A stretch of DNA of 38,576 nt from Candidatus Latescibacterota bacterium (GTDB lineage: Bacteria > Krumholzibacteriota > Krumholzibacteriia > Krumholzibacteriales > Krumholzibacteriaceae), in NCBI GenBank assembly GCA_019038625.1, contig JAHOYU010000235.1:1-38576 (forward strand), written 5' to 3'. Below are positions 13,092 through 28,968 of the stretch, in pieces. The position numbers and the translations under genes are program-made. Numbering within the stretch: the first letter of the stretch is position 1; each line of letters starts with the position of its first letter. The notes under the pieces are model-generated. The model did not search any database and had not been told where the DNA came from. It worked only from the letters and a program-made list of their open reading frames with translations.

Positions 13092-14270
13092 CTTCGAGAG
13101 CATAATATCGAGTCTTTCAGGATATGTATCTCCTGATATGTGAAGTTCTGCCCATGCTCGTACATTTATCCCTGTATTTACAGCGAGTTCCCGGTCCTCA
13201 AGCAGCCTGCATGTCTTTTCAGCGAATTCTGCGGGAGAGTCAGCCTTTAGATATTCCTTTCCATCAGTAAGTCCCATCCCTGACACACCTGCATCCGTAC
13301 TGACCACAGACACTCCCATCGCCGCCGCTTCCAGCATCCTTATCCTGATTCCACCAGCAAAGCGAAGAGGCAATACCATAGCGGAACATTCTCCGAGTTC
13401 TTTTCTGATGTCCTCCGCATACCCGGCAAAGATCACATGATCATGTCTCTGCTTCAGAATATCTTCCGGAACACCCATTCCCACTACGCGCAATACTGTC
13501 CCTGGCCTTTTCTTCAGTATGATCGGAAAAATATCATCGAGCATATATCTCAGTGCGTCTTCATTGAAATCTGACGAGAAAAGTCCAGGAAACAGAAGAG
13601 TATCTTTCAGCCGTTCGTGAAAGGCTGGACTGAATTCATTCAGATCCATTGATGCAGGAAGTCCGACTATCGACTTCCCGGCAAGATACGGCATCTTTTT
13701 CAATGTATCCGCATCCTTTTCTGTCACAGTAATTATTGCCGGGTACTCCTCGTAGGCTTTTTTTTCTATCGATTCCCTCATCCTGGATTCACGGTTCCCT
13801 GTCCTCTCGGCTCCATTTTCCCGTTTTACCAGATAATCCAGATCGTGAGTGAGCAGAACTACCGGCCTCCCATCCATCAGGCTCGGGAGCCTGAAGAGGT
13901 GCCAGTAGTTAGCAATAACCAGATCGACATCTTCTGCTTCTGCTACCGAGCGTATCAGTTCAAGGAAGACCGCGGGAGCTGCATAACTTACTTCGCGGGG
14001 AATTGAATGGATCATTGAAATAGACATATTCTTCAGTTTGTAGAAGATCCTGTGAAGAAAGGATCTTCTGTGCGGGGCCACCATCGCGGCCAAATTGACA
14101 GATTGTCTCCTGATATCCCCTAGCCTGTCGAGATCGGTCGTTGAGAGAGTCATGGTCGACAATATCACTTCGTGTCTTGAAGAAAGGCCATCGATCAGGT
14201 TCATTATCAGTCTGCCTGTTCCCCTTTCAACAGGATATGGACTGTATGGCAATGCGATCAGAATCTTCAT
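13059..14270 (-). CDS. Glycosyltransferase family 4
   Basis: The 403-residue protein begins KILIALPYSPYPVERGTGRLI, a GT4 start of the type seen in exopolysaccharide transferases. The donor domain opens at TLLFPGLFSSDFNEDALRYML, and the donor loop reads FAGGIRIRMLEAAAMGVSVVSTD, the subfamily form in which the first Glu of EX7E is replaced by Gly. It is the last gene of the long export operon. Its ATG overlaps the stop of the preceding GT4 as ATGA, so the two are probably translated together. Its end overlaps the convergent GT4 gene by 33 bases, so no intergenic terminator is possible there. Donor and acceptor are unknown. Confidence 0.9.
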   Translation of the reverse strand: MKILIALPYSPYPVERGTGRLIMNLIDGLSSRHEVILSTMTLSTTDLDRLGDIRRQSVNLAAMVAPHRRSFLHRIFYKLKNMSISMIHSIPREVSYAAPAVFLELIRSVAEAEDVDLVIANYWHLFRLPSLMDGRPVVLLTHDLDYLVKRENGAERTGNRESRMRESIEKKAYEEYPAIITVTEKDADTLKKMPYLAGKSIVGLPASMDLNEFSPAFHERLKDTLLFPGLFSSDFNEDALRYMLDDIFPIILKKRPGTVLRVVGMGVPEDILKQRHDHVIFAGYAEDIRKELGECSAMVLPLRFAGGIRIRMLEAAAMGVSVVSTDAGVSGMGLTDGKEYLKADSPAEFAEKTCRLLEDRELAVNTGINVRAWAELHISGDTYPERLDIMLSKLFGAKGQVVE

Positions 14271-15403
14271 CTCCCAGCCCCATTTTTCAATAGTTCATCA
14301 TATACTGCGATTGTATCGGCCACGGATCTTTCAATCCTGAAACGGGTTTCAAATTCACACCGCGCGTTCTTCCCCATTTCGGCTAGAAGATCCCTGTTTT
14401 CATTAAGAATATTTACTTTGTCAGCAATTCCCCCGGGGCTGGAATGGTCGACCAGAAACCCTGTCCTGCCGTCTTTGAGCAGCTCCGGTATCCCGAATAT
14501 GTCTGTCGCGATCACTGGAAGTCCCCCTGCAAACGCTTCCATGATGACATATGGAGTAGCCTCTACCAGCGATGATACGACAAGAAGATCGGCGGAAGCG
14601 ATGATCCCTGTAATATCATCCCTGTACCCCGCGAAAAAGACCCTGTCACTCAACCCATATTCTTTGACTCGACCCTCAAGGGCTTCCCTCATCTCACCCT
14701 CACCGACTACGGCAAGGACAATATTTTCTGGAAGAAGCCTCATGGATTCGATGAGAGTATCCTGGCCTTTCCTGCTTTCTATGGACCCGATCGATACGAT
14801 TCTCAGACATTTTTCATCGTGGGTCATTCCAGAAAATATATCGGAAGAAGGTAATGTTTCCGGGTCCGGTATACCGTTATAAACCACCCTTATCCTCGAG
14901 CGTGAAACACCGTGTTTACTGACCAGGTAGCGTTTATTATCAGAACTTACAGTTATCACCCTGTCAATAAAAACACTCCCACAACCTTTAAGGATTCTCC
15001 CTTTTGGAAATGAATCGATCATCGGAAGGTGTTCTGTTGACAGTATAGCTTTTATGCCGGCTGCCCTGGCTACGGGAGCCACAAGGCTATACCGCGAATC
15101 GAAGGGGCCCGGAAGGTTCAGATGAAATATCCCTGGAGATATCTTTTTGAGAATTCTGTACAGAGCCCTGGCGCCTCTCATGGAAAAAATACTTTTCCAC
15201 TCTATCCTGTGATGCTCGATTCCCGCGTCCTCAGTCCATCGCCCCAGTCTTCCATCTCCTCTATCGGCGCAACTGATAAGCGCAGGGATGTAACCTGCAT
15301 CGACCAGATTCGATGCCAGAAGATATAGATACCTTTCGGCTCCGCCCGTGTATGGAGCATCGGAAAAGAATACTACCTTCACTTTTTCAACTGATCCATT
15401 CAT
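14267..15403 (-). CDS. Glycosyltransferase family 4
   Basis: The 378-residue protein is a standard GT4. It begins KVKVVFFSDAPYTGGAERYLYLLA with the GGAE acceptor motif, has VVYNGIPD at the domain junction, IVSIGSIESRKGQDTLIESM opening the donor domain, and a full EX7E motif in EATPYVIMEAFAGGLPVIATD. It would add a sugar to the growing lipid-linked repeat unit on the cytoplasmic face. It lies 18 bases after the large GT-C-like gene, and its TGA overlaps the next ATG. The ATG at 15403 has a GGAG site about ten bases upstream. Confidence 0.93.
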   Translation of the reverse strand: MNGSVEKVKVVFFSDAPYTGGAERYLYLLASNLVDAGYIPALISCADRGDGRLGRWTEDAGIEHHRIEWKSIFSMRGARALYRILKKISPGIFHLNLPGPFDSRYSLVAPVARAAGIKAILSTEHLPMIDSFPKGRILKGCGSVFIDRVITVSSDNKRYLVSKHGVSRSRIRVVYNGIPDPETLPSSDIFSGMTHDEKCLRIVSIGSIESRKGQDTLIESMRLLPENIVLAVVGEGEMREALEGRVKEYGLSDRVFFAGYRDDITGIIASADLLVVSSLVEATPYVIMEAFAGGLPVIATDIFGIPELLKDGRTGFLVDHSSPGGIADKVNILNENRDLLAEMGKNARCEFETRFRIERSVADTIAVYDELLKNGAGR

Positions 15404-15421
15404 ATTCTATTTCTCCAGGAC

Positions 15422-18070
15422 TCATGAACCAGGACGGATGGTTATCCTTGTGATTTCCTGGCCGTCAAGACTGTCCCTGTTACGCAGATAATCGTGGATC
15501 CTTCTATTTGGAAGATATGAACATTCCTTCATTGAAAGTTTGAACGCATATACACCGGGAGTCATTTTATCTGGAACTGGTATCCGGAATTCCTGTTTCA
15601 CAGAACAATCCTTCCACTGATCCGGAAATGCCCTTCCACCCATCAATCTTGTAGATCTTGTCATCCTGAAAAACATACCCAGTCGTCTTTCGATCACTCT
15701 TCTATACTGCTTGTCGTACCATTCTCTGAAAAAAGCCCCTTTTGGATAATCAGTATCCAGCCGCACGGTCCATTCAAGTGGAAAACCGAAATCCAATCCG
15801 TTTACCGACTTCCAGCAGAACCAACCTTTCAAAGTATCTCCCGGTGTAACCTCCCTGGTCTCCATCCACATACTTTCAAGCTTGATTCCAGTGTCCGGAA
15901 ATTCTTTTCCATACAGAATGTGCGAACTGGAATCCTGGGAAATATCTTCGTCGAGAAGTATTTCCTCCATCCCACAACATTCAAGCTGAGTGCTGATCAA
16001 GTCCACAAGTCCATTCGAGTTCGAATCCCGGAGACGAGCCACATCGACCGAAAAGAGAAGGAACCTTCCTTCTCCAGAATCCTCGATCAGGACCGGTCCG
16101 GCAGACCTGAATTTCAACAGAATATCGCTTGTCGCCATGATTGGCACAGTATTGAAAAAATCACAGGACGATTTTCGTTTCGTATCCAAAACGATATATC
16201 CGACCCCCTCTTTATCCAACCACTCCAGACTCTCAGACAGGGGTACAACCGGGCTGAAAAGATCCCGCGTATTTTCAATCCTCTCCATAGCGCGGGAATC
16301 AGCTGGTGAACCATGTTGCCCCAGAATGACCGTCACGAAATGGTCGGTCACAGCGGATATCAGATAGCTCGTTTCCGGGTCCGAACTGATAACAGAATTC
16401 GAAGGCAGCCCCGAAAGAAGAGTCTCTATTCTGGAGATGGTTTCTCCTTCGACAGTCCCAGCTTGACCAACGAATCTTCCGGTTATCTCAAAAGCTTCGA
16501 AAGTCGCGGTCCTCAAAGGGAGCGCGATCAAAGCGATCAGAATGAGAGCCAGCCCCCTTGCCAGCATTCTGTTCCACCACACGACCCGATCTGAAGTATT
16601 GTTGAATCTTCCACTGATCAGGACTCGAAAGGATCCAACAGTTAAAACAGATAGTACACACGCCATCGGTGCAGCATCCAGCAATCGGTAGTACAGGTAT
16701 CCTCCGAGGGATATCAATAAAGTCGATGTCAGGGGGTTTAAGACGAGCAGCACTGGCAGAAGGAACATCAGTCCTGCGAGAAATCCAGATTCCCTGATTC
16801 TGCCGATAAGGAAAATCAGTGGTGATAAAAGAACAATATAAAAGAAAGAAAGTCCGGAATATGACAACACTTCGACAGGGTCTACAACATAGAACGTCCT
16901 GCCTATCGCCAATAGACCCTGCGCGTGGGTATGTATCTCATTAAATATTCTCCCTGAGACCAGTAGTCGGACAGTAACAGGAAGAGCAATCGCCACCAGC
17001 ATGAATGGAAGAGCAAATCCAAGTCGTACCCGCCACTTCGCTCCTCTTCCAGAAAACATACTGTACAGGAGAAAAGAAACTATAGTGATTCCAAGCAATA
17101 ATGAAAAGACAGGATGAATCAAGACTCCAGCCAGGGAAAGACTGACCGAATAGCTCAGGTTCCACTTCCCACTTCCCTTGATATATCTTATCAGGTATCC
17201 GGTAGCAAGCCAGTATAAGGCTAGCATCATATTTTTGCTGTAACCGGCTTTAGTCAACCACACCAGTCCGTCTCCATGTATGAGGAGAATAAGAAACACA
17301 GACGCGAGGATCGTCAGGCCCAGTGACTTCAGTATCTCTCTCGCAAATACCCAGAATGCCAACAAATAGAATAAGGAAAGGAATGACGGAAGCATGCGCC
17401 ACAGGAATAACGGAGAAGTATCAGCCAGAAATGCCCAAAGCGCCATAACAGGGTGCCACATGCCTTTTCGGGGATCAAAAGTTCCGCCGTCACCACTTTT
17501 AAAGAAAGAATCGGAAGGGAAAATACGTCCCGTTTCAACACTTCTGCCTATATAACTCAAATGATCCGGAGCATCCGTTGCTACTCCCGTCTCACCAGTC
17601 CCGAAGTAAAATACGAAGAGAAGTACAAAGATAACAGAACCGAAAAACAGGAGTGCTTTTCGCTCGCGGGGAGATAACTCATCTCCCGTTCCGAGAATCC
17701 CCACGAGATCTCTTCTTTCACAGGGATAGGGATACCCCGATCTTACGAAGACAAGTACGGCCATTCCGGCTGTAGCAACAGCCCCCATGACTACTACTAC
17801 AGGATAGTCCAGTCCAGGTATAAAACCGAGGCTCACGAGAAGAATGGAAAAGATCATCCCGGATGAAAAAACCCGTGATAACCCTTCCACAGTCACAGTT
17901 AACTTTCCAAAAAAGAGATAATTGATATATATCCCAGGCAGAATAAAAATAGACAGAAATGCCAGGCTTATACCAAGTAACTCCGCTCCTGGAATTACTT
18001 TGAAAGCGGTCAGGAGGGAAAGACCGAGTATCGATATAGAAATGACAAGTCCAGCCGTTCTCTTGTTCAT
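15422..18070 (-). CDS. Large polytopic membrane protein, probable GT-C-type glycosyltransferase
   Basis: The protein has 882 residues. The N-terminal two thirds is a run of about a dozen or more hydrophobic helices, followed by a soluble C-terminal region of about 300 residues, probably periplasmic. The first long loop after a helix pair contains ATDAPDHLSYIGR, an acidic motif placed like the catalytic loop acid of GT-C enzymes (ArnT, PMT, Gtr types). Those take sugar from a polyprenyl-phosphate donor outside the membrane. The neighbours fit: a DPM1-like GT2 and an ArnE-like flippase lie immediately upstream. A Wzy-like polymerase is an alternative, since no other polymerase candidate is visible. 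The start at 18070 has AGGGAG five bases upstream, better than the GTG at 18091. Confidence 0.6.
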   Translation of the reverse strand: MNKRTAGLVISISILGLSLLTAFKVIPGAELLGISLAFLSIFILPGIYINYLFFGKLTVTVEGLSRVFSSGMIFSILLVSLGFIPGLDYPVVVVMGAVATAGMAVLVFVRSGYPYPCERRDLVGILGTGDELSPRERKALLFFGSVIFVLLFVFYFGTGETGVATDAPDHLSYIGRSVETGRIFPSDSFFKSGDGGTFDPRKGMWHPVMALWAFLADTSPLFLWRMLPSFLSLFYLLAFWVFAREILKSLGLTILASVFLILLIHGDGLVWLTKAGYSKNMMLALYWLATGYLIRYIKGSGKWNLSYSVSLSLAGVLIHPVFSLLLGITIVSFLLYSMFSGRGAKWRVRLGFALPFMLVAIALPVTVRLLVSGRIFNEIHTHAQGLLAIGRTFYVVDPVEVLSYSGLSFFYIVLLSPLIFLIGRIRESGFLAGLMFLLPVLLVLNPLTSTLLISLGGYLYYRLLDAAPMACVLSVLTVGSFRVLISGRFNNTSDRVVWWNRMLARGLALILIALIALPLRTATFEAFEITGRFVGQAGTVEGETISRIETLLSGLPSNSVISSDPETSYLISAVTDHFVTVILGQHGSPADSRAMERIENTRDLFSPVVPLSESLEWLDKEGVGYIVLDTKRKSSCDFFNTVPIMATSDILLKFRSAGPVLIEDSGEGRFLLFSVDVARLRDSNSNGLVDLISTQLECCGMEEILLDEDISQDSSSHILYGKEFPDTGIKLESMWMETREVTPGDTLKGWFCWKSVNGLDFGFPLEWTVRLDTDYPKGAFFREWYDKQYRRVIERRLGMFFRMTRSTRLMGGRAFPDQWKDCSVKQEFRIPVPDKMTPGVYAFKLSMKECSYLPNRRIHDYLRNRDSLDGQEITRITIRPGS

Positions 18071-18119
18071 TCGAACTCCCTGACCTCTCACCAGCCCGTG
18101 CTTTTACTTTTGCCTGGTT

Positions 18120-18482
18120 TTAAGTCCTGCTCACCAGAAATACGCCCGCGCAGATCACGAGTATACCTGCGAATCTCTGGAGTGAAAAGGGTTCGTTAAG
18201 CAGAGTCGGAGCGAGAAGCGCAGTTACAACATATGAAAGACTGACCATGGGGAAAGCCCAACTCAGCTCAGTCCTGGATAATATCAATATCCAGAGGACG
18301 GCACTCACGGCATATGAACAGAACCCGCCGATAACAAAACCGGATGTAATGACCTTCATCGTCGTCCCCATTATATTACTCAGATCCAGCTTCCCTATCT
18401 TGTTTATTCCGGCTTTCATCATGAACTGGCCTGCAGTGTTCAGACAGACAGTTGCTATTATAAGCAGGAGGTTTTTAAACAT
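18120..18482 (-). CDS. Small EamA/DMT-family membrane protein (ArnE/ArnF- or SMR-like half transporter)
   Basis: This 120-residue protein has four hydrophobic helices: LLLIIATVCLNTAGQFMMKAG, a second around VIGGFCSYAVSAVLWILIL, a third at AFPMVSLSYVVTALLAP, and a last at FAGILVICAGVFLVS. The pattern, including an early AGQxxMKxG and the SYVVTALLAP segment, matches the small multidrug-resistance-like half of the DMT superfamily to which ArnE and ArnF belong. Those flip undecaprenyl-phosphate-linked aminoarabinose. Between a DPM1-like GT2 and a GT-C-like protein, a role flipping a polyprenyl-phosphate sugar is the natural guess. It would act as a dimer. The ATG at 18482 has AAGGA about seven bases upstream. 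Confidence 0.8.
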   Translation of the reverse strand: MFKNLLLIIATVCLNTAGQFMMKAGINKIGKLDLSNIMGTTMKVITSGFVIGGFCSYAVSAVLWILILSRTELSWAFPMVSLSYVVTALLAPTLLNEPFSLQRFAGILVICAGVFLVSRT

Positions 18483-18522
18483 CTCTCTTCCTTTCCAGGT
18501 CAATACGATAATTGTCCGGAAA

Positions 18523-19203
18523 TCATTTCAACGGTTTAAAGCGCAACTTCACGAGGTAGAGAAGATTCTCGAAGCCATCCTTCCACTTGTTCAGTTTGAC
18601 TTCGCCGACTCGTGGATGATAATTGACGTGATATTCGTCAAATCTGATCTCGGGATGACGAATAGCGTTTATCTTGATCTCCTCACTGAGAGGCATACCG
18701 TTGCTCTCAAGTTGAAGCTTGGGATAGATCTCGCTCTTGTATATCCACATGCCTGACTGTGAGTCGTTAATAGCCCTGAAAAAAAGGAGGAACGTGCCAG
18801 CAGTGAGAATCCAGTTCCCGAGCTGGTTGGACAGGTTCATAGAATTCTGGTCTTTCAATGGAAATCTTGATGCTGATACAAAGTCGAGATCGTTATCGAG
18901 AAGGTGATCGATGCATTCCTCGATCTGCTCGACAGCGTACGTGCCATCCCCGTCCATTGTGACCGTTATATCACCCGTTACAGCAGGCAACCCTGCTTTG
19001 TATGCTGCCCCGTATCCTTTGCGTTTTTCAAATACTACTCTAGCTCCCAGCTCTTTCGCGACATTCGATGTCCCGTCAGTGGAATTGTTATCGACTACGA
19101 CGATTTCATCCACAGATTCTGGAAGCGAGGGTATTACAAGGGCGATTCCCTCTTCTTCGTTATAACACGGGATGACTACTGATATCTTTTTTTCACGATA
19201 CAT
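18523..19203 (-). CDS. Glycosyltransferase family 2 (polyprenyl-phosphate glycosyltransferase, DPM1-like)
   Basis: The 226-residue protein begins ISVVIPCYNEEEGIALVI, with NNSTDGT at 39-45 and the metal-binding DGDGTY at 84-89. This arrangement is typical of dolichyl- or undecaprenyl-phosphate glycosyltransferases. The FFRAINDSQSGMWIYK segment matches the 'DxxSGFR' acceptor region of that group. There is no C-terminal pair of membrane helices, so it is the soluble DPM1/GtrB-like short form, apart from one hydrophobic stretch near GNWILTAGTFLLFF. It would form undecaprenyl-phosphate-sugar at the inner face for flipping by the adjacent EamA protein. The ATG at 19203 follows AAGGA by six bases. 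Confidence 0.88.
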   Translation of the reverse strand: MYREKKISVVIPCYNEEEGIALVIPSLPESVDEIVVVDNNSTDGTSNVAKELGARVVFEKRKGYGAAYKAGLPAVTGDITVTMDGDGTYAVEQIEECIDHLLDNDLDFVSASRFPLKDQNSMNLSNQLGNWILTAGTFLLFFRAINDSQSGMWIYKSEIYPKLQLESNGMPLSEEIKINAIRHPEIRFDEYHVNYHPRVGEVKLNKWKDGFENLLYLVKLRFKPLK

Positions 19204-19215
19204 GATAAATCCTTA

Positions 19216-20718
19216 TCAGAAAAGGGCTACAATCTTCTCCTTGAAAGGAACAGGAAGACTCATTATCAGTTCTTTCTCCCTGGCCCCCAGTACCTTCATA
19301 AACCTGAATCCGCCAATAAGCAATACTATCCCGACAATCATCTGAATGGCCAGAGCCGGAATCGAATCCCATCTCGAAGCCGTGATCGCCAGACAGGCAA
19401 CAGGAGCCGCAGCCCCATAACACTTCAAAATAAAACCGACAGGAGTTCGGATATCCTTTCGGATCTTCCTGACAGCAATATTAAACACGACGACTTCCAG
19501 GAAAAGCACGATCACAACAGGAATAAATGCTCCCCAGATGCCGTATCTGGGAATCAATGCAATATCCAGTCCTATATTTACAATGGCCATCAAAGCTAGC
19601 ACAATCATGTTAACCCAGCTTTTTTCCATCACATACAGTGCCATACTGAGCGGAGTATAGAGAAAGGAATATGAAAAGACAACGAAAAACAGTTGCGTAA
19701 ACTTTGCGGCTGGAAGCATTTCGATCCCGAAAAGTATTGGAACAAGAGGCCTGGCGAAAGCGAACCCCATAGCAGCTACCGGTATTACCAGAAGAAAAAG
19801 GAGCCGGAAATACAGGTCGACAGCCTCGGGCAGTCTTCCGGAATCCCTCGAGTAGATCTCCGAAGTACCTGCCATAACAATGGGCCATATTGTCAGCGGA
19901 ACGAATTCCAGGGCCATCTGTGGAATGTCGTATGCGAGGCCAAAATACCCGGAAGCTTCCATACCGATCCATTTCCCGAGAAACAGGACCTCGGAATGCC
20001 TCCATATGATCTGATTGAGGAAGCCTGTCACGATGAATGGAAGAGAAAATTTCATCATTTGCGAAAGCGCTGGCGGATTACCACCGCCAGCAGGGCATGA
20101 CTTGACGAGCTCTGCAAGCTGAGGAAAAAGCGCGGCAGTCATGAGCAGATCGATAATCGCGCCTGCAAGAAGATAGCCGGCAATCCCCATACCAGCCTTA
20201 AGAAGCAACATCATAATAATAAGATAACCAGCGTTACCCAAGGCAATTACAATACTGAGCCTTCTAGTCTCATACCATGATTGGAGGGTGTTGCTTATCA
20301 TGGATATGCCGACTTTGAAAATCACCAACCCCACTGCGACCATCAAATAGAGACTGAAACCACCATCCTGAACCATATAGATAGCACTGATCCGATCCCT
20401 GAAGATCCATGTCATCACCATAACGACACACCATGAAGCCATCTGTATTATAAAATATTTTTTCAGGTTGCTCTTGAAAGTGTCCATCCCTCCGCTGACC
20501 CTTATCCCCGGCAGAAACTTAAGTACCGCATTTCCACCTCCGATCATTACGATTATCAGTGCGAAACCTGAAAGCGTCTTCAGGACACTGAGCATACCCC
20601 AGTTATAACTTCCAAGTAACCGCACTACGATAATGTAGCTGACAGGGCCCGCAAGGTAGCGCGCTACCCTGGCGAATATATTCCATGACATCGCTATTCC
20701 CACTTTTTTATATGTCAT
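19216..20718 (-). CDS. wzx: Oligosaccharide flippase (Wzx-like, MOP superfamily)
   Basis: The 500-residue protein is almost entirely hydrophobic, with about 12-14 predicted helices. It begins AMSWNIFARVARYLAGPVSYIIVVRLLGSY, the usual Wzx start with a basic residue between the first helix and the 'RLLG' loop. ALEFVPLTIWPIVMAGTSEIY in the second half matches the family's central symmetry helix. Wzx flips undecaprenyl-diphosphate-linked repeat units to the periplasm for polymerisation. It lies two bases after the phosphodiesterase gene stop and 13 bases before the GT2, within the export operon. Family assignment is strong and substrate unknown. A second in-frame ATG lies nine codons in. Confidence 0.92.
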   Translation of the reverse strand: MTYKKVGIAMSWNIFARVARYLAGPVSYIIVVRLLGSYNWGMLSVLKTLSGFALIIVMIGGGNAVLKFLPGIRVSGGMDTFKSNLKKYFIIQMASWCVVMVMTWIFRDRISAIYMVQDGGFSLYLMVAVGLVIFKVGISMISNTLQSWYETRRLSIVIALGNAGYLIIMMLLLKAGMGIAGYLLAGAIIDLLMTAALFPQLAELVKSCPAGGGNPPALSQMMKFSLPFIVTGFLNQIIWRHSEVLFLGKWIGMEASGYFGLAYDIPQMALEFVPLTIWPIVMAGTSEIYSRDSGRLPEAVDLYFRLLFLLVIPVAAMGFAFARPLVPILFGIEMLPAAKFTQLFFVVFSYSFLYTPLSMALYVMEKSWVNMIVLALMAIVNIGLDIALIPRYGIWGAFIPVVIVLFLEVVVFNIAVRKIRKDIRTPVGFILKCYGAAAPVACLAITASRWDSIPALAIQMIVGIVLLIGGFRFMKVLGAREKELIMSLPVPFKEKIVALF

Positions 20719-20720
20719 GT

Positions 20721-21860
20721 CTATCCAGCCTGCTCTGAGAAGGTTTTTTTGAAAAATGGAGCCACATCCGTGATTCTGGATCCATAGAACTCGACATCCC
20801 GATTTGTAAATAATGCGCTGAACATACTCTCCTCAGCGGGATGGTAACCATGCATCGCCGCTACCGGTGTCTTTCCCATAAAACTCGGCACAATAATAAT
20901 CCCGGCATCGAGCTGGAAGATGATATCACCGAATCGACCGTCTTTGAAACTGATCCCCAGCCTGTCCAGTTCGTCTTCTTTTAGTATTTTCCCACGAGCA
21001 CAACGGGACAGGATCGCCCTTATTTTATCTCCAGCGTGAACGTCGTTGATCCTGAATCTCGCCATGGTCGAGTCGAAAAAAGGAATATAATCATCAGGGA
21101 TCCTGAGTCCGGCAGATTCTATTTCAGGCAAAAGATCTATATGATGGGTCACATCACACATCCCGTGATCTCCCATGACTGCCAGAATCAGATCTTGCTG
21201 CTCAGAGAGAAGTCTTTCGATTCGCTCCCGGTACCACCCAAGCTTCTCCAGAGTTTCTGTCGATCCGGTCCCGGTCGTATGCATAATGGCATCCAGCCCT
21301 GCCGTATATAAAAGGAAAAAACCACTTCTATCTTCTTTAAGGGCAACAGACAATTCCTCAAATGCTTTCTCTTCTGGCGTTTCGTAATCCCAGACTCTCA
21401 CATTCATTCCGGTTTGGAATGCATAGTCTAATATCGTCTTGCCTCCTCGAACGCTGCCGGGCGCGAACAGTCTCTTTCGAGCAGGAAGATCCAGATACGG
21501 AAGTACCGTGCCAGGAACATCGTAAAGGTTATAGTAAGCTGACACCCCGTCGAGATGTTTCAATTTCCAGTTCAACAGACGCCTGCCCCAGAGCCTGGAC
21601 ATATCCGACATCCCGGGAACCGACCGGATGAATCTGAACGGACTGCTTTCCTTCGAAAACGAATACATCATCCATAATTTGTGTTTATCCGGTTTTGATC
21701 CAGTCATGATCGAAGTCAAAGCGGACTGGCTGAACCCGGGAACTGTCTCAAGTTTCACCGCATCCGACAAACCTTCGGGTCTGAAGGCGTGTTTATTCAC
21801 CAGTTCGTACCCTAGAGCATCGATGATTATAAGTACTTTTTTACTTTTATGATCACTCAT
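20721..21860 (-). CDS. Alkaline-phosphatase-superfamily phosphodiesterase/nucleotide pyrophosphatase-like protein
   Basis: The 379-residue protein begins KKVLIIIDALGYELVN with metal-ligand Asp14. It continues ETVPGFSQSALTSIMTGSKPDKH, where the nucleophile position (ten before the TG glycine) is Ser44. AVMGDHGMCDVTHHIDL carries the second Asp-His pair, and AAMHGYHPAEESM gives the last His. No signal peptide is seen, so it is likely cytoplasmic. The start at 21860 is chosen because the ATG sits one base after the upstream nucleotidyltransferase stop (TAAGATG) with GGAAG nearby, implying coupled translation; the frame also stays open upstream to 21929. It may cleave a nucleotide-sugar or nucleotidyl linkage. 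The tight pairing with a nucleotidyltransferase is striking. Confidence 0.8.
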   Translation of the reverse strand: MSDHKSKKVLIIIDALGYELVNKHAFRPEGLSDAVKLETVPGFSQSALTSIMTGSKPDKHKLWMMYSFSKESSPFRFIRSVPGMSDMSRLWGRRLLNWKLKHLDGVSAYYNLYDVPGTVLPYLDLPARKRLFAPGSVRGGKTILDYAFQTGMNVRVWDYETPEEKAFEELSVALKEDRSGFFLLYTAGLDAIMHTTGTGSTETLEKLGWYRERIERLLSEQQDLILAVMGDHGMCDVTHHIDLLPEIESAGLRIPDDYIPFFDSTMARFRINDVHAGDKIRAILSRCARGKILKEDELDRLGISFKDGRFGDIIFQLDAGIIIVPSFMGKTPVAAMHGYHPAEESMFSALFTNRDVEFYGSRITDVAPFFKKTFSEQAG

Positions 21861-21861
21861 C

Positions 21862-23127
21862 TTATCTTCCGAATACAAGTCTGGACCACCATCGATGGCA
21901 CGAGTCAGCTCCATCTTCCCAGCTTCCACCTGAATATGGAAATCCGCCCGGCGGACTGCCCACGAGACTCTCGGTCCCGTTTTTGACCAGAACAGCCAGC
22001 AGATGGACCGACGCGGCCCTTACTATTCCAGAGGGAGTACTGGAGAAAAATGCCTTCCCCAGGAATCCTGCCGTCCGGAGCATATTCACCCAACCGAGCC
22101 TCTCCATAATCGGTTTCCACGACCTCATCCAGTCCACGACATGAATCTTGTCTGACCGGAATGCGGCAACATGCTGTAATCCTTTCCATGTCAAAGGCAC
22201 TACGGCATCGTTTTCAAGAACGGCTGCACATCTGTTCCATGCTTCAAGGATATCTTCAACGCACTCAAGATAGATTTCTCTGAATTCGCAGTCCAGGACC
22301 TCGATTATATCAAGGGAAGGATTCATCTTGAAGACACTCCATTTTCTAGTCTTCCTGACTATGACCCTTGTTATCAGGTCCCTGAAAGGAAGCGAATCAC
22401 ATCTCTCATCGAGATACGCCCATCTTTTCTGGTATCCTGCCATATATCTTTTCGAAGCTATGAGTGTGCCTGTCAATATGTCTGTATAACCACGCGCGAT
22501 ATTATAGAGAAAACCATATATCTCATCTTCTCCTTCAAGATCATCTCCTGGCCAGCATGTCAAAAGTGAGGCCATCCTGTTTTCCAGCAAAAGCAATCCC
22601 TCGCTCACCTCGATATCTTCAGGATCGAAAGAAGGCAACATATCGAGAATCGATTCTTTTCCATACAAAATTTGCCCGTGATTCTTCAATACGAAAATTC
22701 CGGGAGAAGGAGGAAAGGAACGCAGTTCATCAACATGAACGATGCCGACATCCACCCTTCCAATAAAATTCGCCTCCGGAATCAATGCCTCGCATGCCTG
22801 TCCCAGTTCCTTTCTGAGAGAGAGCGACTCCAGAAGTTTCTCCCTCGAGTTCAGGACCACAAGCAGATCTATGTCGGAGAGAAAGATCGGGTTTCCACTC
22901 TCAAATGAAATAGCGCCTTCACCAAGCGCGAAACTCCCTCCCAGAATGATTGCTTCTGTTTCCTCAAGTCCTATATTGTCGGCAAGTAGCGATCCGCATT
23001 CTCGAAGAAATCCATTGAAATGTCCGAGATACCAGTCAGACACGGGATTGCCTGAATCTTTCTTGTCTAGCTTGAAAAACCCGCATTCATCGTACGGCGT
23101 ATTATCATGATTATCTATACCTGACAA
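21862..23127 (-). CDS. Nucleotidyltransferase (Pol-beta superfamily) domain protein
   Basis: The 421-residue protein has the Pol-beta signature GGS at 63-65 in ILGGSFALGEGAI, the metal-binding pair D85 and D87 in LSDIDLLVVL, and a third acid at D126 in GRVDVGIV. All three catalytic carboxylates are therefore present. The remaining roughly 290 residues are unfamiliar and mainly helical in appearance. The start is TTG (23127-23125) directly after the TAA of the CpsD-like gene, with no in-frame ATG before the motif; a GTG about 29 codons in is the fallback. Such enzymes attach a nucleotide to a protein, RNA or small molecule. Sitting between a CpsD homologue and a phosphodiesterase, it may regulate or modify an export component. 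That is speculation. Confidence 0.72.
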   Translation of the reverse strand: MSGIDNHDNTPYDECGFFKLDKKDSGNPVSDWYLGHFNGFLRECGSLLADNIGLEETEAIILGGSFALGEGAISFESGNPIFLSDIDLLVVLNSREKLLESLSLRKELGQACEALIPEANFIGRVDVGIVHVDELRSFPPSPGIFVLKNHGQILYGKESILDMLPSFDPEDIEVSEGLLLLENRMASLLTCWPGDDLEGEDEIYGFLYNIARGYTDILTGTLIASKRYMAGYQKRWAYLDERCDSLPFRDLITRVIVRKTRKWSVFKMNPSLDIIEVLDCEFREIYLECVEDILEAWNRCAAVLENDAVVPLTWKGLQHVAAFRSDKIHVVDWMRSWKPIMERLGWVNMLRTAGFLGKAFFSSTPSGIVRAASVHLLAVLVKNGTESLVGSPPGGFPYSGGSWEDGADSCHRWWSRLVFGR

Positions 23128-23889
23128 TTATACCCGCCTGTATATAAACTCGGGGATATAGTATTTTTTCTTGTTTAAGACAGAACCGATGAATTCTCCA
23201 TCCAGTTTCTCAACCATGGTCATCGCTCTTTTTATCACTTCTCTCTTCGTCCTGCCTGCTTCTACAACTATTACAATACCCGTGGACAATGCCCCGATTA
23301 TGGCTGTTTCGGGAGCCTCAAGTATCGCTGATGTATCTACCAACACATAATCGTAATGTTCGCCGACTGCGTTGATAAAGCTTCTCATCCTTTCGGAGTT
23401 AAATAGAGGCTGAGTGATGTCCGCACTTCTTATCGTTCCGATCGTTATGATATCCAGCGCACCTTCGTCCAGGACTGTTATCACTTCGGAAAGCTCAGCT
23501 TCACCCGACAGCAGATCCAGGACACCTTTCTCATTCTTCACACCGAATAGATCATGAATCTGGGGATTATTGACCGCGCAGTCGATTATCAGGATCTTTT
23601 CTGTTTCTCCAAGGGCCAGTACCCTGGCAAGATACGATGCGATCATCGTCTTGCCTTCACCCCCGACTGCGCTTGTAAACATCACAACGCGCGAATCACG
23701 CTTCTTGATCTCTGAATCGATGGCATTTCGAAGATTTAACAGAGATCTCCGGAAATTCTCATCCAGCCCCTTCATGAAGCTGGTCTTACCCCGGGATACA
23801 GATTTGGTGGTTCGTGGTATCGACACTTTTCCAGAACCGGACTTTTTTGCGGTCTCCGCTTTTCTAAGGGCGTCAAATATCTTGCTCAA
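23128..23889 (-). CDS. CpsD/CapB-family BY-kinase-like ATPase with degenerate Walker A'
   Basis: The 253-residue protein begins SKIFDALRKAE, the hallmark N-terminus of bacterial tyrosine autokinases that partner Wzz proteins. Walker A is SAVGGEGKT (73-81) and Walker B is YVLVDTSA around D165. The C-terminus carries Tyr243, Tyr244 and Tyr250, a small tyrosine cluster. Walker A' is KILIIDCAVNNP: the first Asp (D103) is kept, but the second Asp and following Arg of the usual DxDxR are Ala and Asn. Kinase activity is therefore uncertain. These proteins phosphorylate themselves to control chain length and export. The start is TTG at 23889 with AAGGGA six bases upstream, and the downstream nucleotidyltransferase starts on the next base after the stop. 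Confidence 0.85.
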   Translation of the reverse strand: MSKIFDALRKAETAKKSGSGKVSIPRTTKSVSRGKTSFMKGLDENFRRSLLNLRNAIDSEIKKRDSRVVMFTSAVGGEGKTMIASYLARVLALGETEKILIIDCAVNNPQIHDLFGVKNEKGVLDLLSGEAELSEVITVLDEGALDIITIGTIRSADITQPLFNSERMRSFINAVGEHYDYVLVDTSAILEAPETAIIGALSTGIVIVVEAGRTKREVIKRAMTMVEKLDGEFIGSVLNKKKYYIPEFIYRRV

Positions 23890-23917
23890 TTGATTTCCCT
23901 TCCATCCTGGAGAGCCT

Positions 23918-24763
23918 CTACATAGGCCCGTTCCTTCGATCCATCACCGGACTTTCCTTGCTTTCCAGATCTCTTATTCCTTCCCGTACTATCTTGCCGC
24001 TGATGGTCCTGGTGTTAGCCACATATCCGAGGAGGAGAACCCTGTCACACAACACATTGATGAGCCTTGGCGTGCCGCCTGAATAATGGTAGATCTCCTC
24101 AAGAGCATCATCCGTAAAAATCGGTCCTCCGTTATTAACAGATGCTATCTCCAGTCGGTACTTTATATACTTATTGACGTCCTCATGGCTCAGCATGGGG
24201 ATCTTGCAGATGCCGGGGATTCTCTGCCGCAATTGACGCAATTCATTCAGGTTGAGAATATTCTCAAGTTCCGGTTGACCGACAAGCATTATCTGGATCA
24301 ACTTCTTGTCACGTGTCTCCAGATTTGAAAGCATCCGCAATTCTTCCAGGACTTCGGGAGATAGATTCTGGGCCTCATCTATGATCAATACCGTATTTCT
24401 GTTGTTTTCGTACTGGGAAATCAGAAAACGGTTAAGAGCCAGAAGCATCTGCGCCTTGTTCATGTTCTCAGCATCGATTCCAAAATCATTGCAGATCAGA
24501 TACAACAACTGATCGAAAGGAAAAAGGGTGGAGAAAACAAAGGCGACTTCCAGGGAAGGCTGGAAGAGGTCTATAAACGCATTCACTACCGTAGTCTTCC
24601 CGACACCGACCTCACCGGTGACTGCGATGAATCCTTTTTTCTGAAATACCCCATAAGTAATATAGGCCAAAGCATCCCTGTGGCTCTCGCTCCTGTATAG
24701 AAACTTTGGGTCGGGAGTGACGTTGAATGGCAATTCTTTGAATCCGTAATAATTTTCGTACAT
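23918..24763 (-). CDS. ExeA-like AAA ATPase (exopolysaccharide/XrtA-system-associated type)
   Basis: The 281-residue protein begins YENYYGFKELPFNVTPDPKF, the exact style of ExeA/GspA-type ATPases and their exopolysaccharide-locus relatives. Walker A is GEVGVGKTT (50-58), Walker B is TVLIIDEAQNL (D129, E130), a sensor segment reads VGQPEL, and GGTPRLIN is the arginine-bearing C-terminal motif. No peptidoglycan-binding domain follows, unlike full-length ExeA. The role in polysaccharide loci is not settled; it probably energises or senses the export complex together with Wzz and CpsD, its immediate neighbours. It starts five bases after the Wzz stop. No exosortase is visible in the window. Confidence 0.9.
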   Translation of the reverse strand: MYENYYGFKELPFNVTPDPKFLYRSESHRDALAYITYGVFQKKGFIAVTGEVGVGKTTVVNAFIDLFQPSLEVAFVFSTLFPFDQLLYLICNDFGIDAENMNKAQMLLALNRFLISQYENNRNTVLIIDEAQNLSPEVLEELRMLSNLETRDKKLIQIMLVGQPELENILNLNELRQLRQRIPGICKIPMLSHEDVNKYIKYRLEIASVNNGGPIFTDDALEEIYHYSGGTPRLINVLCDRVLLLGYVANTRTISGKIVREGIRDLESKESPVMDRRNGPM

Positions 24764-24768
24764 AGCTA

Positions 24769-26133
24769 CTATTTACCGTCAAGGTCAGGGAAGCTTGAAA
24801 GCACCTGAAATCCCAGGGCATCCTCAGCTTCATTTACGTTCTTTATAGAATGGTCAAGATTATCCATGAAAAATGCGAAACCCAGCGCAATGACCATACT
24901 GAAAAGAGGTCCGAGCGCCATGCGCACATAATCCCTCGTCTTCTTCTGGTAAGCTCTTGCGGCTGGCGCAAGAATCGTCACTGAATAATCGGGGTTACTG
25001 GCCATATTTATCCTGGAACTCAGATGCTGCTCCTGAAGCAGATCAAGCCTTTCCTCCAGGATGCCCAGAGTCCTGTCAATACGATGAAGCTCCAATCCCT
25101 TCTCCGGATAGGCAGTCCTTTCATCCATAAGAGTGCCCATAAGATTCATCAGATTTTTTTCACGACCGGTCACGATCTCGAGTTTCCTCCTGTTGATATC
25201 TATTGAGCTCTGTATCTCCACTACCATGTAAGGGTACAGAGCATCTATCTGATGTTTGATTTTTTTCATTTCCCGGTGATCATCGGTATATTTAATGGAA
25301 AACTCCGATTCACGCAACCTCAGTTCGACCAATTCTTCCGCATACTGTTCAAGGCGCGATTTCCTCAATCCATCGCCTGTAATCGCAGCTGCGCCTGCCG
25401 CCAGCTCGCTTACATCCCTCGACTTGAACTCCTTGAGTGTTTCGATGACCTTTTCCAACTTTATCTTCTCGTCCCTCACCTCTTCCAGATCAGATCTATA
25501 CTTTTCCAGTCTGGACAAGTTGGTTCTCACCTGGAAAGCAATATCTACCAGCCCCCATTTCTTTTCCACGCTGGTCTTTCTGTCTCTCCAGTATTCGAGA
25601 TCGGCTTTTGCCGTGTTCATTTCGGACGTGAAGAAATCCTCCATCTCGGGAGGAGTGCGGACCTTCTGATAATATTCCTTGTAAGAATTTATAATCGCGT
25701 TCACTGATGCTTCACAGAATATTGGATCGAGTCCCGAATATGAGACCCAGAGAACATTCGAGGTAGCAATAACGCCAGACTGAACCTCTCCGAATCCAAT
25801 TTTTTCTTCGCTCGAATAACTTTCAGGAAGAAAATCAACGACAAGTTCCCTTGCTCGTTCGATTACCACCTGGGATTTGACCATCTCGATCTGCGAAGAT
25901 ATTTCCTCTTCCCACGGCAGAGTTCTTACACTGCGGCTGAACACACCGGTCGCTTCGCCGCGCCTGACAAGCATTTTCCCTGTCGATTCGAATATGGCGG
26001 GTTCTCTCAGATTAAGGGCGATCACAAGGGTAGTGGAAACCAGGACAACGCCCAGAATGACCCACTTTCTCCTGAAGATTACTTCAAGAAAATCCTTTAT
26101 AGTTGATTCTTTCTGTACAGTCCTTTTTTCCAT
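24769..26133 (-). CDS. Polysaccharide chain-length determinant/co-polymerase (Wzz/GumC-like)
   Basis: The 454-residue protein has the Wzz architecture: a short cytoplasmic start (STIKDFLEVIFRRK), a first membrane helix near 28-48 (WVILGVVLVSTTLVIAL), and a long periplasmic region rich in coiled coil (residues about 150-380, with many Glu/Lys/Leu heptads). A second helix near 405-428 (RMALGPLFSMVIALGFAFF) ends in the conserved NLDHSIKNVNEAED motif. It sets polymer length and bridges Wza and the cytoplasmic kinase. The CpsD partner is encoded separately downstream, as in many two-component Wzz/BY-kinase sets. It begins five bases after the Wza stop. Confidence 0.93.
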   Translation of the reverse strand: MEKRTVQKESTIKDFLEVIFRRKWVILGVVLVSTTLVIALNLREPAIFESTGKMLVRRGEATGVFSRSVRTLPWEEEISSQIEMVKSQVVIERARELVVDFLPESYSSEEKIGFGEVQSGVIATSNVLWVSYSGLDPIFCEASVNAIINSYKEYYQKVRTPPEMEDFFTSEMNTAKADLEYWRDRKTSVEKKWGLVDIAFQVRTNLSRLEKYRSDLEEVRDEKIKLEKVIETLKEFKSRDVSELAAGAAAITGDGLRKSRLEQYAEELVELRLRESEFSIKYTDDHREMKKIKHQIDALYPYMVVEIQSSIDINRRKLEIVTGREKNLMNLMGTLMDERTAYPEKGLELHRIDRTLGILEERLDLLQEQHLSSRINMASNPDYSVTILAPAARAYQKKTRDYVRMALGPLFSMVIALGFAFFMDNLDHSIKNVNEAEDALGFQVLSSFPDLDGK

Positions 26134-26138
26134 TATCT

Positions 26139-26942
26139 TTATCTCGCCGCCTGACCTGTCGCCCTGTAGAATTCATAAACGGTCTGTATATTCGCGACAT
26201 TCCATCCTTTTAGATACAAGTCCATCGGCCTTAATAAAATACTCGAAAAACTGCTGACGAAATCCTCCGTCGAAGCAAGTTTGGATTTGGGAACCATCAC
26301 TATATCAAACGGCATCATGGATACATCCAGGTCATATCTGTTATCGTTGATTATTTTTTTAACATCGACTTCTATACCGACTATGTGGTTCCAGTCCACT
26401 CTCCTAACGATGACAACCCCATTCTTCTTCGCGCTATCCTTAAGGCCGCGTCCCATCGCGAGAGCACTCATCAGGGTCAACCCCTTCTGATATTCGTATC
26501 CTCCCGGATTTCCAACTTGCCCCATCACATATACCATCTGAGGTTCGAATTCACGTATAATCACTGTTATTTCAGGCACACGAAGTATTTCCGAGAATTT
26601 GTTTGTCAAGAGGCTGTCGACCTGAGAAGCGGTTTTTCCGGCGACTGCGACCTCGCCGACGTAAGGGTATGAGATTCTTCCGTCAGGCCTGACTTTCAAA
26701 GCCTCTCTGGAATATTGTTGATTGTACAGGAACAGCACGTCTATTACGTCACCATAACCGATATAATACTCATCCATCCATGGTACGGACTGGACACTGT
26801 CAGCGTCAAACGGCTTTTTTTCTACCTCTCCGTCCTTGATCACTACCATCCTGTTGCCACCACCACAGCCAGTGTACAGGACCAGGAGACCGCACAATAC
26901 CGCAACAGATATATACGTCGTACAGCGCATTTTACCTTTCAT
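26139..26942 (-). CDS. wza: Polysaccharide export outer-membrane lipoprotein (Wza-like)
   Basis: The protein has about 267 residues. A signal peptide (CTTYISVAVLCGLLVLYTGC) ends in a lipobox Cys26, with Tyr at the -3 position, slightly unusual. The Poly_export domain follows (YYIGYGDVIDVLFLYN, then VRPDGRISYPYVGEVAVAGKT) and then one SLBB domain (VYVMGQVGNPGGYEYQKGLTLMSAL). It is shorter than E. coli Wza (379) and seems to have a single SLBB repeat. It forms the outer-membrane exit channel. The ATG at 26942 is chosen because the open frame further upstream overlaps the predicted -10 at 26990; an ATG at 26930 is the alternative. Confidence 0.9.
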   Translation of the reverse strand: MKGKMRCTTYISVAVLCGLLVLYTGCGGGNRMVVIKDGEVEKKPFDADSVQSVPWMDEYYIGYGDVIDVLFLYNQQYSREALKVRPDGRISYPYVGEVAVAGKTASQVDSLLTNKFSEILRVPEITVIIREFEPQMVYVMGQVGNPGGYEYQKGLTLMSALAMGRGLKDSAKKNGVVIVRRVDWNHIVGIEVDVKKIINDNRYDLDVSMMPFDIVMVPKSKLASTEDFVSSFSSILLRPMDLYLKGWNVANIQTVYEFYRATGQAAR

Positions 26943-26989
26943 GTCTTCAATTTTGACATCCGACCCTGCTAAATCTATAAGTCGGCGCA

Positions 26990-27018
26990 AATCTACCTGT
27001 TTAGGCGTAATTTGTCAA
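26990..27018 (-). promoter_or_regulatory. Sigma-70-like promoter ahead of the Wza-like gene
   Basis: On the minus strand a perfect TTGACA (27018-27013) is followed after 17 bases by TAGATT (26995-26990), a four-of-six -10. Transcription would begin near 26983, about 41 bases before the ATG at 26942. It sits in the 108-base gap after the sugar transferase, so Wza and later genes could be transcribed even when the attenuated upstream promoter is off. Confidence 0.5.
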
Positions 27019-27743: not shown

Positions 27744-27752
27744 TTTTCCTCC

Positions 27753-27787
27753 AAAAAAACCCAGGCCAGATTCTTCAGCCCGGGTTT
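27753..27787 (-). terminator. Intrinsic terminator in the operon leader (probable attenuator)
   Basis: On the minus strand AAACCCGGGC (27787-27778) pairs with GCCTGGGTTT (27766-27757), ten pairs with one G-U wobble, around an 11-base loop. The 3' arm runs into seven T (27759-27753). GGAGG, the ribosome site of the sugar transferase, begins on the next base (27752-27748). The terminator thus lies between promoter and first gene, where it can only serve as a conditional stop. Confidence 0.75.
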
Positions 27788-27822
27788 CAAGGCATAGAAA
27801 AAAACGCCTGCCATAGAAACTC

Positions 27823-27853
27823 ACTTCATCCCACTAAATCCCAGCACTGAAGT
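27823..27853 (-). repeat. Upstream leader hairpin and possible antiterminator segment
   Basis: ACTTCA and TGAAGT (27823-27828 and 27848-27853) form a perfect six-base inverted repeat with a 19-base loop. The loop contains, on the minus strand, GCTGGGATTT (27845-27836), which resembles the terminator 3' arm GCCTGGGTTT. It could therefore compete for the terminator 5' arm, with eight of ten positions pairing. Two CATAGAAA copies (27793-27800 and 27812-27819) lie between this hairpin and the terminator. The folding is inferred only. Confidence 0.4.
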
Positions 27854-27874
27854 AAATACCTATAGCAAACGTTT

Positions 27875-27901
27875 CTTCGTACACCTCCCTGTACTACGAA
27901 G
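27875..27901. promoter_or_regulatory. Operator-like inverted repeat overlapping the transcription start
   Basis: CTTCGTA (27875-27881) and TACGAAG (27895-27901) are perfect seven-base arms separated by 13 bases, with inner GTAC copies. The repeat starts on the base after the predicted -10 and covers the predicted start site, the classic place for a repressor. Because transcription would begin inside it, a protein-binding DNA site is likelier than an RNA hairpin. Confidence 0.45.
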
Positions 27902-27931
27902 ATACTATCACAAATCCAGGCATGATGTCAA
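27902..27931 (-). promoter_or_regulatory. Sigma-70 promoter of the polysaccharide export operon
   Basis: On the minus strand a perfect TTGACA (27931-27926) is separated by 18 bases from TAGTAT (27907-27902). Transcription should start near 27895, giving a leader of about 150 bases before the sugar transferase ATG at 27743. The 277-base gap 27744-28020 holds this promoter, the flanking repeats, the leader hairpins and the terminator. Confidence 0.6.
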
Positions 27932-28020: not shown

Positions 28021-28968
28021 CTATGAAATAAGGGCTGAATACAGGATCGGGATAATGATCTCGTGATGTCCAGTGATCGCGATAGAGCGTCCTCCAAACG
28101 AAGCCGGACGATTCAGGACATTCTCGCCAGGTCTGTAATGCTGGATAATGTCGAGGTTGCAGGTTGTTATCCTCGAAAATGATGCTCCCTTGTTTCTCGC
28201 CACGCTGAAAGCCTTGAGGAAGACTTCAGGAAGTATCACGGCAGATCCGGCGTTGACCACTATTCCTCCCTCAAAACCCAAATTTTCGACACGCTGGCAG
28301 AATATCCTGAAATCCCTGTAAGATAATCCACCCCAAGCCGATCCGTCATACGACGGATGCTGGTTGATGATATCCGTGCCAATAGCAATATGGACCGTCA
28401 CCGGGATATCATGCTCGTAGGCAGATGCGAAGAGACTCTTGTCGCGGTTCGGAGCTTTCTTCCTGCTGATATACCTGCCGATCGCCTCTCCCAGTCCCAA
28501 CCCATCGGTGACACCATCATCAACTGCTTCGGCAAGAAGCGAAGCTGTCTCTTCAGTAAAACCAAATATCCCCTTCTTGAGATTCGCAGCAACATCCTCG
28601 GAAGTCTTCCCGAAAAAGGCGATCTCGATATCATGTATCGCACAGGCTCCGTTTACTGCCAGGGAAGTCATGAAACCGGTCTTCATCATCTCGATCAGGT
28701 ATAGAGGAAGTCCGCATTTGATCACGTGGGCTCCGATCATCCAGATGATTTCCTGCTTTCCGGAAGAACGCGCCTCCTCCATCGACCTTACGATCTCTTT
28801 TATCCTGCTCCCGGCAAGTTGGTCGGGCAGCAAATCGAACCATTCCCTGAACGCGCTTCCGCCTTTGGCAGGTTTTCCGTAGTCATCAAGGGAGACCTTG
28901 CTTACTCTCTCCTCAAACGGTATGGTCCTGATCCCCGAAAAATCCGACTCCTTGTATTTACCTGTCAT
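28021..28968 (-). CDS. Conserved protein of unknown function, possibly deoxyhypusine-synthase-like
   Basis: I do not recognise a characterised function for this 315-residue protein. It shows strong-looking conserved blocks: IIWMIGAHVIKCGLPLYLIE, LAVNGACAIHDIEIAFFGKT, GLGLGEAIGRYI, IPVTVHIAIGTDIINQHPS, GGIVVNAGSAVILPEVFLKA and a final ITGHHEIIIPILYSAL. The order of glycine-rich strands, an 'IPV' strand and a closing hydrophobic PxLxxA recalls the deoxyhypusine-synthase-like NAD-binding fold, but the similarity is weak by eye and the active-site lysine is not assigned. It has no signal peptide or membrane helix. It overlaps the DUF3108 gene by 11 bases, so the two are probably made together. 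The ATG has a close GGGGAG. Confidence 0.75.
   Translation of the reverse strand: MTGKYKESDFSGIRTIPFEERVSKVSLDDYGKPAKGGSAFREWFDLLPDQLAGSRIKEIVRSMEEARSSGKQEIIWMIGAHVIKCGLPLYLIEMMKTGFMTSLAVNGACAIHDIEIAFFGKTSEDVAANLKKGIFGFTEETASLLAEAVDDGVTDGLGLGEAIGRYISRKKAPNRDKSLFASAYEHDIPVTVHIAIGTDIINQHPSYDGSAWGGLSYRDFRIFCQRVENLGFEGGIVVNAGSAVILPEVFLKAFSVARNKGASFSRITTCNLDIIQHYRPGENVLNRPASFGGRSIAITGHHEIIIPILYSALIS

Follow-up and report, generated by a model that had tools for sequence, protein, structure and literature searches.

The DNA considered here, which we call the window, is a 38,576-nucleotide stretch comprising positions 1 to 38,576 of contig JAHOYU010000235.1 (assembly GCA_019038625.1) from a Candidatus Latescibacterota bacterium placed by GTDB in the Krumholzibacteriaceae. 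On its minus strand a promoter, from which transcription would start at about 27895, stands before a leader of some 150 nucleotides, behind which lies a gene for a bacterial sugar transferase, whose ATG stands at 27743-27741. This gene probably forms an operon with the same-strand genes that extend downstream to about 13059, among which the Wzz-like Pfam match falls below the cut-off. The leader contains three hairpins, designated HP1, HP2 and HP3 (Table 1), and the seven T that follow HP3 directly adjoin the GGAGG of the sugar-transferase gene. A first-pass annotation had already described the TTGACA promoter, the length of the leader, its hairpin and the seven T touching the GGAGG, all of which the sequence confirms; it had also seen the terminator, and had missed both the large HP2 and the GGAGG hairpin at the 5' end.

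Table 1. Features of the leader and of the genes behind it, in window coordinates
Feature	Position	Strand	Basis
Promoter TTGACA, 18-nucleotide spacer, TAGTAT with TG extension	27902-27931	-	sequence; kept in homologous leaders
-35 element TTGACA	27931-27926	-	sequence
Extended -10 element TGaTAGTAT	27907-27902	-	sequence
HP1, small 5'-terminal hairpin GUAC-AGGGAGGU-GUAC, loop with GGAGG	27879-27894	-	covariation; GGAGG invariant
HP2, long imperfect hairpin, base ACGUUUGCUAUAG / CUAUGGCAGGCGUUUU, mid-stem mismatch	27797-27875	-	fold; covariation
Conserved TTTGCTATAG, YUGNUA core, 15 nucleotides past GGAGG	27860-27869	-	sequence comparison
Candidate antiterminator strand CUUCAGUGCUGGG, apical part of HP2	27840-27852	-	complementary to 27784-27773; pairing recurs in relatives with other sequences
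HP3, predicted terminator hairpin; 5' arm and loop (27784-27773) are the antiterminator partner	27757-27787	-	covariation
T7 tract after HP3	27753-27759	-	sequence
Shine-Dalgarno GGAGG of first gene	27748-27752	-	sequence
First gene, bacterial sugar transferase PF02397	27051-27743	-	Pfam E 1.9e-66; orthologs sit behind leader
Downstream genes: Poly_export/SLBB, Wzz-like, ExeA-like AAA, ParA/BY-kinase-like, phosphodiesterase-like, glycosyltransferases	13059-26990	-	Pfam

The first-pass annotation had proposed that the leader be folded and its homologs aligned, and both checks came out in favour of a conserved structure. Positions 27744-27908 fold at -69.6 kcal/mol against -40.7 +/- 3.7 kcal/mol for shuffled sequences (z -7.9; none of 200 shuffles as good), and the fold displays the three hairpins. 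BLAST with the leader finds matches within the family, the weakest at about 70% identity, and a covariance model built from 13 leaders detects a single copy in each of 18 of the family's 20 genomes and in each of 22 of the 25 genomes of the order. All 14 good-quality genomes of the order carry it; the three order genomes that do not are 61, 62 and 80% complete. In carriers the leader always lies in front of the orthologous sugar-transferase gene. Members of a sister family (L065-L068) reach just 35-40 bits with the covariance model, yet they too precede the orthologous gene, which speaks for homology despite the low scores. No second copy was found in the source genome, and in the rest of the class and of the phylum the model found nothing convincing. 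Records of carriers are named Candidatus Krumholzibacteriia, UBP1 and once Latescibacterota, and these named records are metagenome assemblies; L072, titled Candidatus Latescibacterota, has the leader and matches G024 of the window's order, probably a mismatch of naming.

Covariation was assessed in 21 leaders aligned to the covariance model, with 38 modelled pairs. With one arm slid, standard pairs make up 42.6-56.1% of the pair cells, whereas the true register gives 92.6%; both sides have changed in 26 of the 38 pairs. None of 500 shuffles reaches these values. Such two-sided changes occur in all four pairs of HP1 (77% of cells paired), 14 of the 25 modelled pairs of HP2 and eight of the nine pairs of HP3. 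An alignment based on the model is fitted to the structure and is thus biased in its favour; a MAFFT alignment, which is free of this bias, has kept double changes in 10 of 34 pairs. The GGAGG of HP1 is invariant in the leader alignment (A2). Comparison thus establishes the three hairpins and their conservation. The case for the promoter and the terminator is likewise made by conservation, as pattern matches alone are near chance across the window (25 versus 22.9 for the promoter pattern, 21 versus 14.1 for the terminator pattern). A conserved hairpin lies between promoter and gene, followed in 20 of 26 homologs by a tract with at least six T in eight positions (five of the others have just five T in eight, and one has three), and HP3 is probably a terminator of transcription.

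The sequence also allows a second way of pairing. In the source leader, CUUCAGUGCUGGG in the apical part of HP2 is complementary to CCCGGGCUGAAG, that is, to the loop of HP3 together with its 5' arm. Other lineages have other sequences, and even the side of the HP2 loop that is used differs, yet their strands still complement the arm and loop of HP3: the pairs are perfect in L012 (GCAUCGCUU/AAGCGAUGC), in L013 and L049 (UUCCGCCCG/CGGGCGGAA) and in L051 and L052 (GCCUGCCCG/CGGGCAGGC), and comprise 12 base pairs in L053 (GUAUCACCGGUU/GACUGGUGAUGC) and 10 in L067 (CUUAUCGGGU/GCCUGAUAAG). The antiterminator segment suggested in the first pass, GCTGGGATTT, overlaps the 3' half of CTTCAGTGCTGGG (27852-27840) and was to that extent well placed; the other half, CTTCAG, whose match is the terminator loop, had been overlooked. 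Among 12 divergent representatives, own HP2-HP3 pairs reach -19.2 kcal/mol and foreign pairs -13.8 kcal/mol (z -5.7; 0 of 20000 permutations). The 3' arm of HP3 is uninformative as a control because the loop is shared, and the reversed strand, used in its place, gives z -2.9. Comparison thus establishes that the complementarity is kept across the order, and among order members an alternative pairing that would compete with the terminator is conserved.

A reduced form of the element, consisting of the promoter, GGAGG, 13-20 nucleotides and YUGNUA, reaches other families of the class. In f3, f4, f7 and f8 a promoter, GGAGG and, 13-16 nucleotides on, YUGNUA precede the ortholog in most genomes, and f7 additionally has a long hairpin and a clean terminator. 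Loci L130-L133 (f4), L154 (f3) and L112 (f8) have the promoter, GGAGG and YUGNUA before the ortholog with a terminator not recognised, and in f4 bases at the start codon or adjacent to it are possible pairing partners of the UUGCUA strand, a hint of control at the level of translation. The motif was not seen upstream of the orthologous gene in f5 and f6; in f5 that gene lies closely behind another coding frame. A genome-wide DNA pattern gave 13 matches, of which six score with the covariance model and seven do not, and a class-wide pattern (78 genomes) gave 21, of which 19 are this leader, against eight for a backwards control pattern. A TTGACA..GGAGG..TTGCTA arrangement at 1501-1577 of L172 (G042), upstream of a frame that by eye resembles KsgA (16S rRNA dimethyltransferase), may be due to chance.

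The order-wide conservation, the compensatory changes in all three hairpins and the species-specific HP2-HP3 complementarity support the first-pass proposal, an attenuator-type leader that has an antiterminator option, and we think it reasonably probable that the leader is a lineage-specific cotranscriptional attenuator of the long exopolysaccharide operon, acting through HP2-HP3 pairing. HP1 and HP2 would be the first parts that RNA polymerase makes; the apical strand of HP2 would pair with the 5' half of HP3 on its emergence, forming an antiterminator pseudoknot, and once the 3' arm was complete, HP3 would become the more stable form and the polymerase would stop at the T tract. Nearest-neighbour sums, which contain neither pseudoknot nor kinetic terms, favour the pseudoknot in 21 of 22 leaders before the 3' arm of HP3 exists, and favour HP3 by 2.9-30.5 kcal/mol after its completion, so that the default state would be mostly OFF. 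A factor that stabilised the HP2-HP3 pairing or delayed HP3 would then turn the operon ON. We infer the direction of the switch, as well as the existence and nature of a trigger, for which the GGAGG loop of HP1 and the stem of HP2 are the likely contact sites.

In the minimum-energy fold of the single sequence HP1 is opened, and its 3' half, GGUGUA (27884-27879, minus strand), pairs with UAUGCC past HP2 (about 27795-27787), in place of which many family members have UGCGCC, UGCACC or UACGUC, which are likewise pairable; HP1 itself may thus be one state of the switch, and HP1 and an extended HP2 may be mutually exclusive. The foot of HP2 has a GC-rich base, GCAGGCG, followed by T7 (27801-27795, minus strand), and the run counts at least five T in most, not all, family members. 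In many leaders a T run closes HP2, which may thus be an intrinsic terminator too, the first of two, with HP3 as the second.

Besides the simplified energies, several points weigh against the attenuator. Part of the advantage of own pairs is compositional, as the reversed-strand control reveals. Per-leader z values are modest and come near zero in four f7 leaders, so that the pseudoknot is supported within the order only. Several leaders pair mainly the loop of HP3, which would also permit a kissing complex with an intact terminator. A good T tract is lacking after HP3 in L012, L013, L049, L050, L066 and L068, and termination may therefore not be the output in every species; some may instead act on translation, or have a terminator that depends on NusA. 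Finally, in f3, f4 and f8 no terminator was recognised by eye despite the promoter, GGAGG and YUGNUA.

A lesser share of probability falls to the alternative that HP2 and the loop pairing constitute a metabolite or second-messenger aptamer, that is, a riboswitch whose pseudoknot is stabilised by a ligand. In preQ1- and fluoride-type riboswitches the partner of a loop is a strand further downstream, part of which also belongs to the terminator, and the leader shares such loop-to-terminator pairing; its strong primary-sequence conservation and covariation, its single copy per genome before one pathway gene and the overlap of the pseudoknot with the terminator would also fit. However, the leader has a long conserved double-stranded stem, in which most of its conserved positions are base-paired, and neither a multi-helix junction nor a conserved unpaired pocket. 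No Rfam family, EAR, JUMPstart, T-box and the known riboswitches included, matches the window or 20 homologous loci at the curated gathering score, in keeping with the failure of the first pass to recognise a riboswitch motif, and the best Rfam results for the leader are at chance level (MIR6024 at 30 bits, where the cut-off is 72).

We are equally reserved about a constitutive element that acts in stability or processing of the 5' untranslated region with no conditional termination (the GGAGG hairpin as a Shine-Dalgarno-like stabiliser of the mRNA, HP2 as a hairpin for processing and HP3 as one that protects, close to the Shine-Dalgarno sequence), or about a terminated leader that serves as a small RNA. 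It would accommodate a GGAGG with no start codon 4-12 nucleotides downstream in any of 26 leaders, the six imperfect T tracts, and the retention of promoter, GGAGG and YUGNUA in f3, f4 and f8, where a terminator was not recognised. It would leave unexplained the full T tract behind 20 of 26 HP3 hairpins, and inert hairpins would not be expected to show species-specific HP2-HP3 complementarity.

Control by CsrA, which would bind the GGA in HP1 and perhaps that in the HP2 loop or the Shine-Dalgarno sequence of the gene and act on termination or translation, is an unlikely explanation, even though the source genome carries csrA. HP1 has a GGA in its hairpin loop with ACA upstream, and its GUACAGGGAGGU agrees at 11 of 12 positions with RUACARGGAUGU, the CsrA consensus from systematic evolution of ligands by exponential enrichment (PMC4347634). 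A precedent is the pgaA leader of E. coli, where a polysaccharide operon with GGA sites undergoes premature termination involving Rho and CsrA (PMC6582626); polysaccharide operon, GGA sites and, as predicted, leader termination recur here, but termination looks intrinsic and most carriers have no CsrA. Indeed, CsrA (PF02599) is not encoded wherever the site is kept: it has no match in 17 of 22 leader-bearing genomes, including G001 of the same genus (96% complete), in which HP1 is identical, and in the CsrA-positive G010 HP1 lacks the ACA. CsrA may thus act in some species, but it cannot be what keeps the element. The invariance of the GGAGG leaves the 30S subunit, through its anti-Shine-Dalgarno sequence, or an RNA-binding protein as candidate readers, and either seems likelier than CsrA.

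RfaH/ops (JUMPstart) and UpxY leaders control polysaccharide operons. Processive antitermination by a NusG paralog (RfaH, UpxY or LoaP) loading at the leader is a further alternative; the first pass had left room for a specialised NusG. A long polysaccharide operon behind a leader hairpin and terminator is the usual setting of such factors (PMC12691694, PMC7858274). The LoaP-dependent dfn and mln leaders of Bacillus velezensis likewise place a hairpin and an intrinsic terminator, in that order, ahead of a long biosynthetic operon (PMC12691694), but they depend on a NusG paralog and on a hairpin with a UNCG tetraloop, and neither was seen here. A second PF02357 (NusG-family) match was found in none of 58 genomes, and ops-like sites in the window are at chance (70 versus 69.9 expected), the sole one in the leader being a two-mismatch match in HP3. 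We consider this explanation very improbable. As to other antitermination proteins, a BglG/LicT-type antiterminator was rejected, CAT_RBD matching in none of 25 genomes while controls gave matches; an ANTAR protein was found in none of the 25, with no control genome giving a match either.

Ribosome-mediated attenuation through a leader peptide, which the strong Shine-Dalgarno-like GGAGG of HP1, 5'-terminal in the transcript, might suggest, is scarcely credible, and the first pass had seen no leader peptide either: no ATG, GTG or TTG follows that GGAGG within 4-12 nucleotides in any of the 26 leaders, and neither the GTG frame in HP1 (which overlaps the Shine-Dalgarno sequence) nor a 24-amino-acid ATG frame ending on the ATGA of the gene (27814-27740; broken in G001 and G015) is kept as coding in relatives. 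A two-codon UUG-CUA-UAG frame was also rejected, being broken in g8, L009 and L050.

Three further features of the neighbourhood were recorded. A promoter-like TTGACA-17-TAGATT lies at 27018-26990 (minus strand), between the sugar-transferase and export genes. Near its other end, at 4200-4937 (minus strand), the window contains another match to the sugar transferase, more distantly related (45% identity) and not preceded by this leader. The gene upstream of the leader, at 28021-28968 (minus strand), has an ArgZ-like C-terminal fold, and by eye it seems to be syntenic in f3 too (L152, L154).

A likeness in the regulation of exopolysaccharide synthesis is the eps-associated RNA (EAR) of B. subtilis, a cis RNA that promotes transcription of the eps operon (PMC7858274), whereas the leader of the Krumholzibacteriia matches no Rfam model. 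We tentatively entertain, as a possibility with the odds against it, that the Krumholzibacteriia have in this leader a regulatory RNA of a new class, in which HP1 and HP2 form a sensor of 30S subunits, of a polyprenyl- or nucleotide-sugar precursor or of an RNA-binding protein, and exopolysaccharide production is controlled by loop-to-terminator pairing with no known antitermination protein. What has been found is a structured, covarying leader, absent from Rfam and bound strictly to a single exopolysaccharide operon of a lineage that has been little studied. If the attenuator is true, the polysaccharide operons of this group would be under the control of a leader RNA that works without a protein of the RfaH, UpxY, LoaP or, usually, CsrA type.
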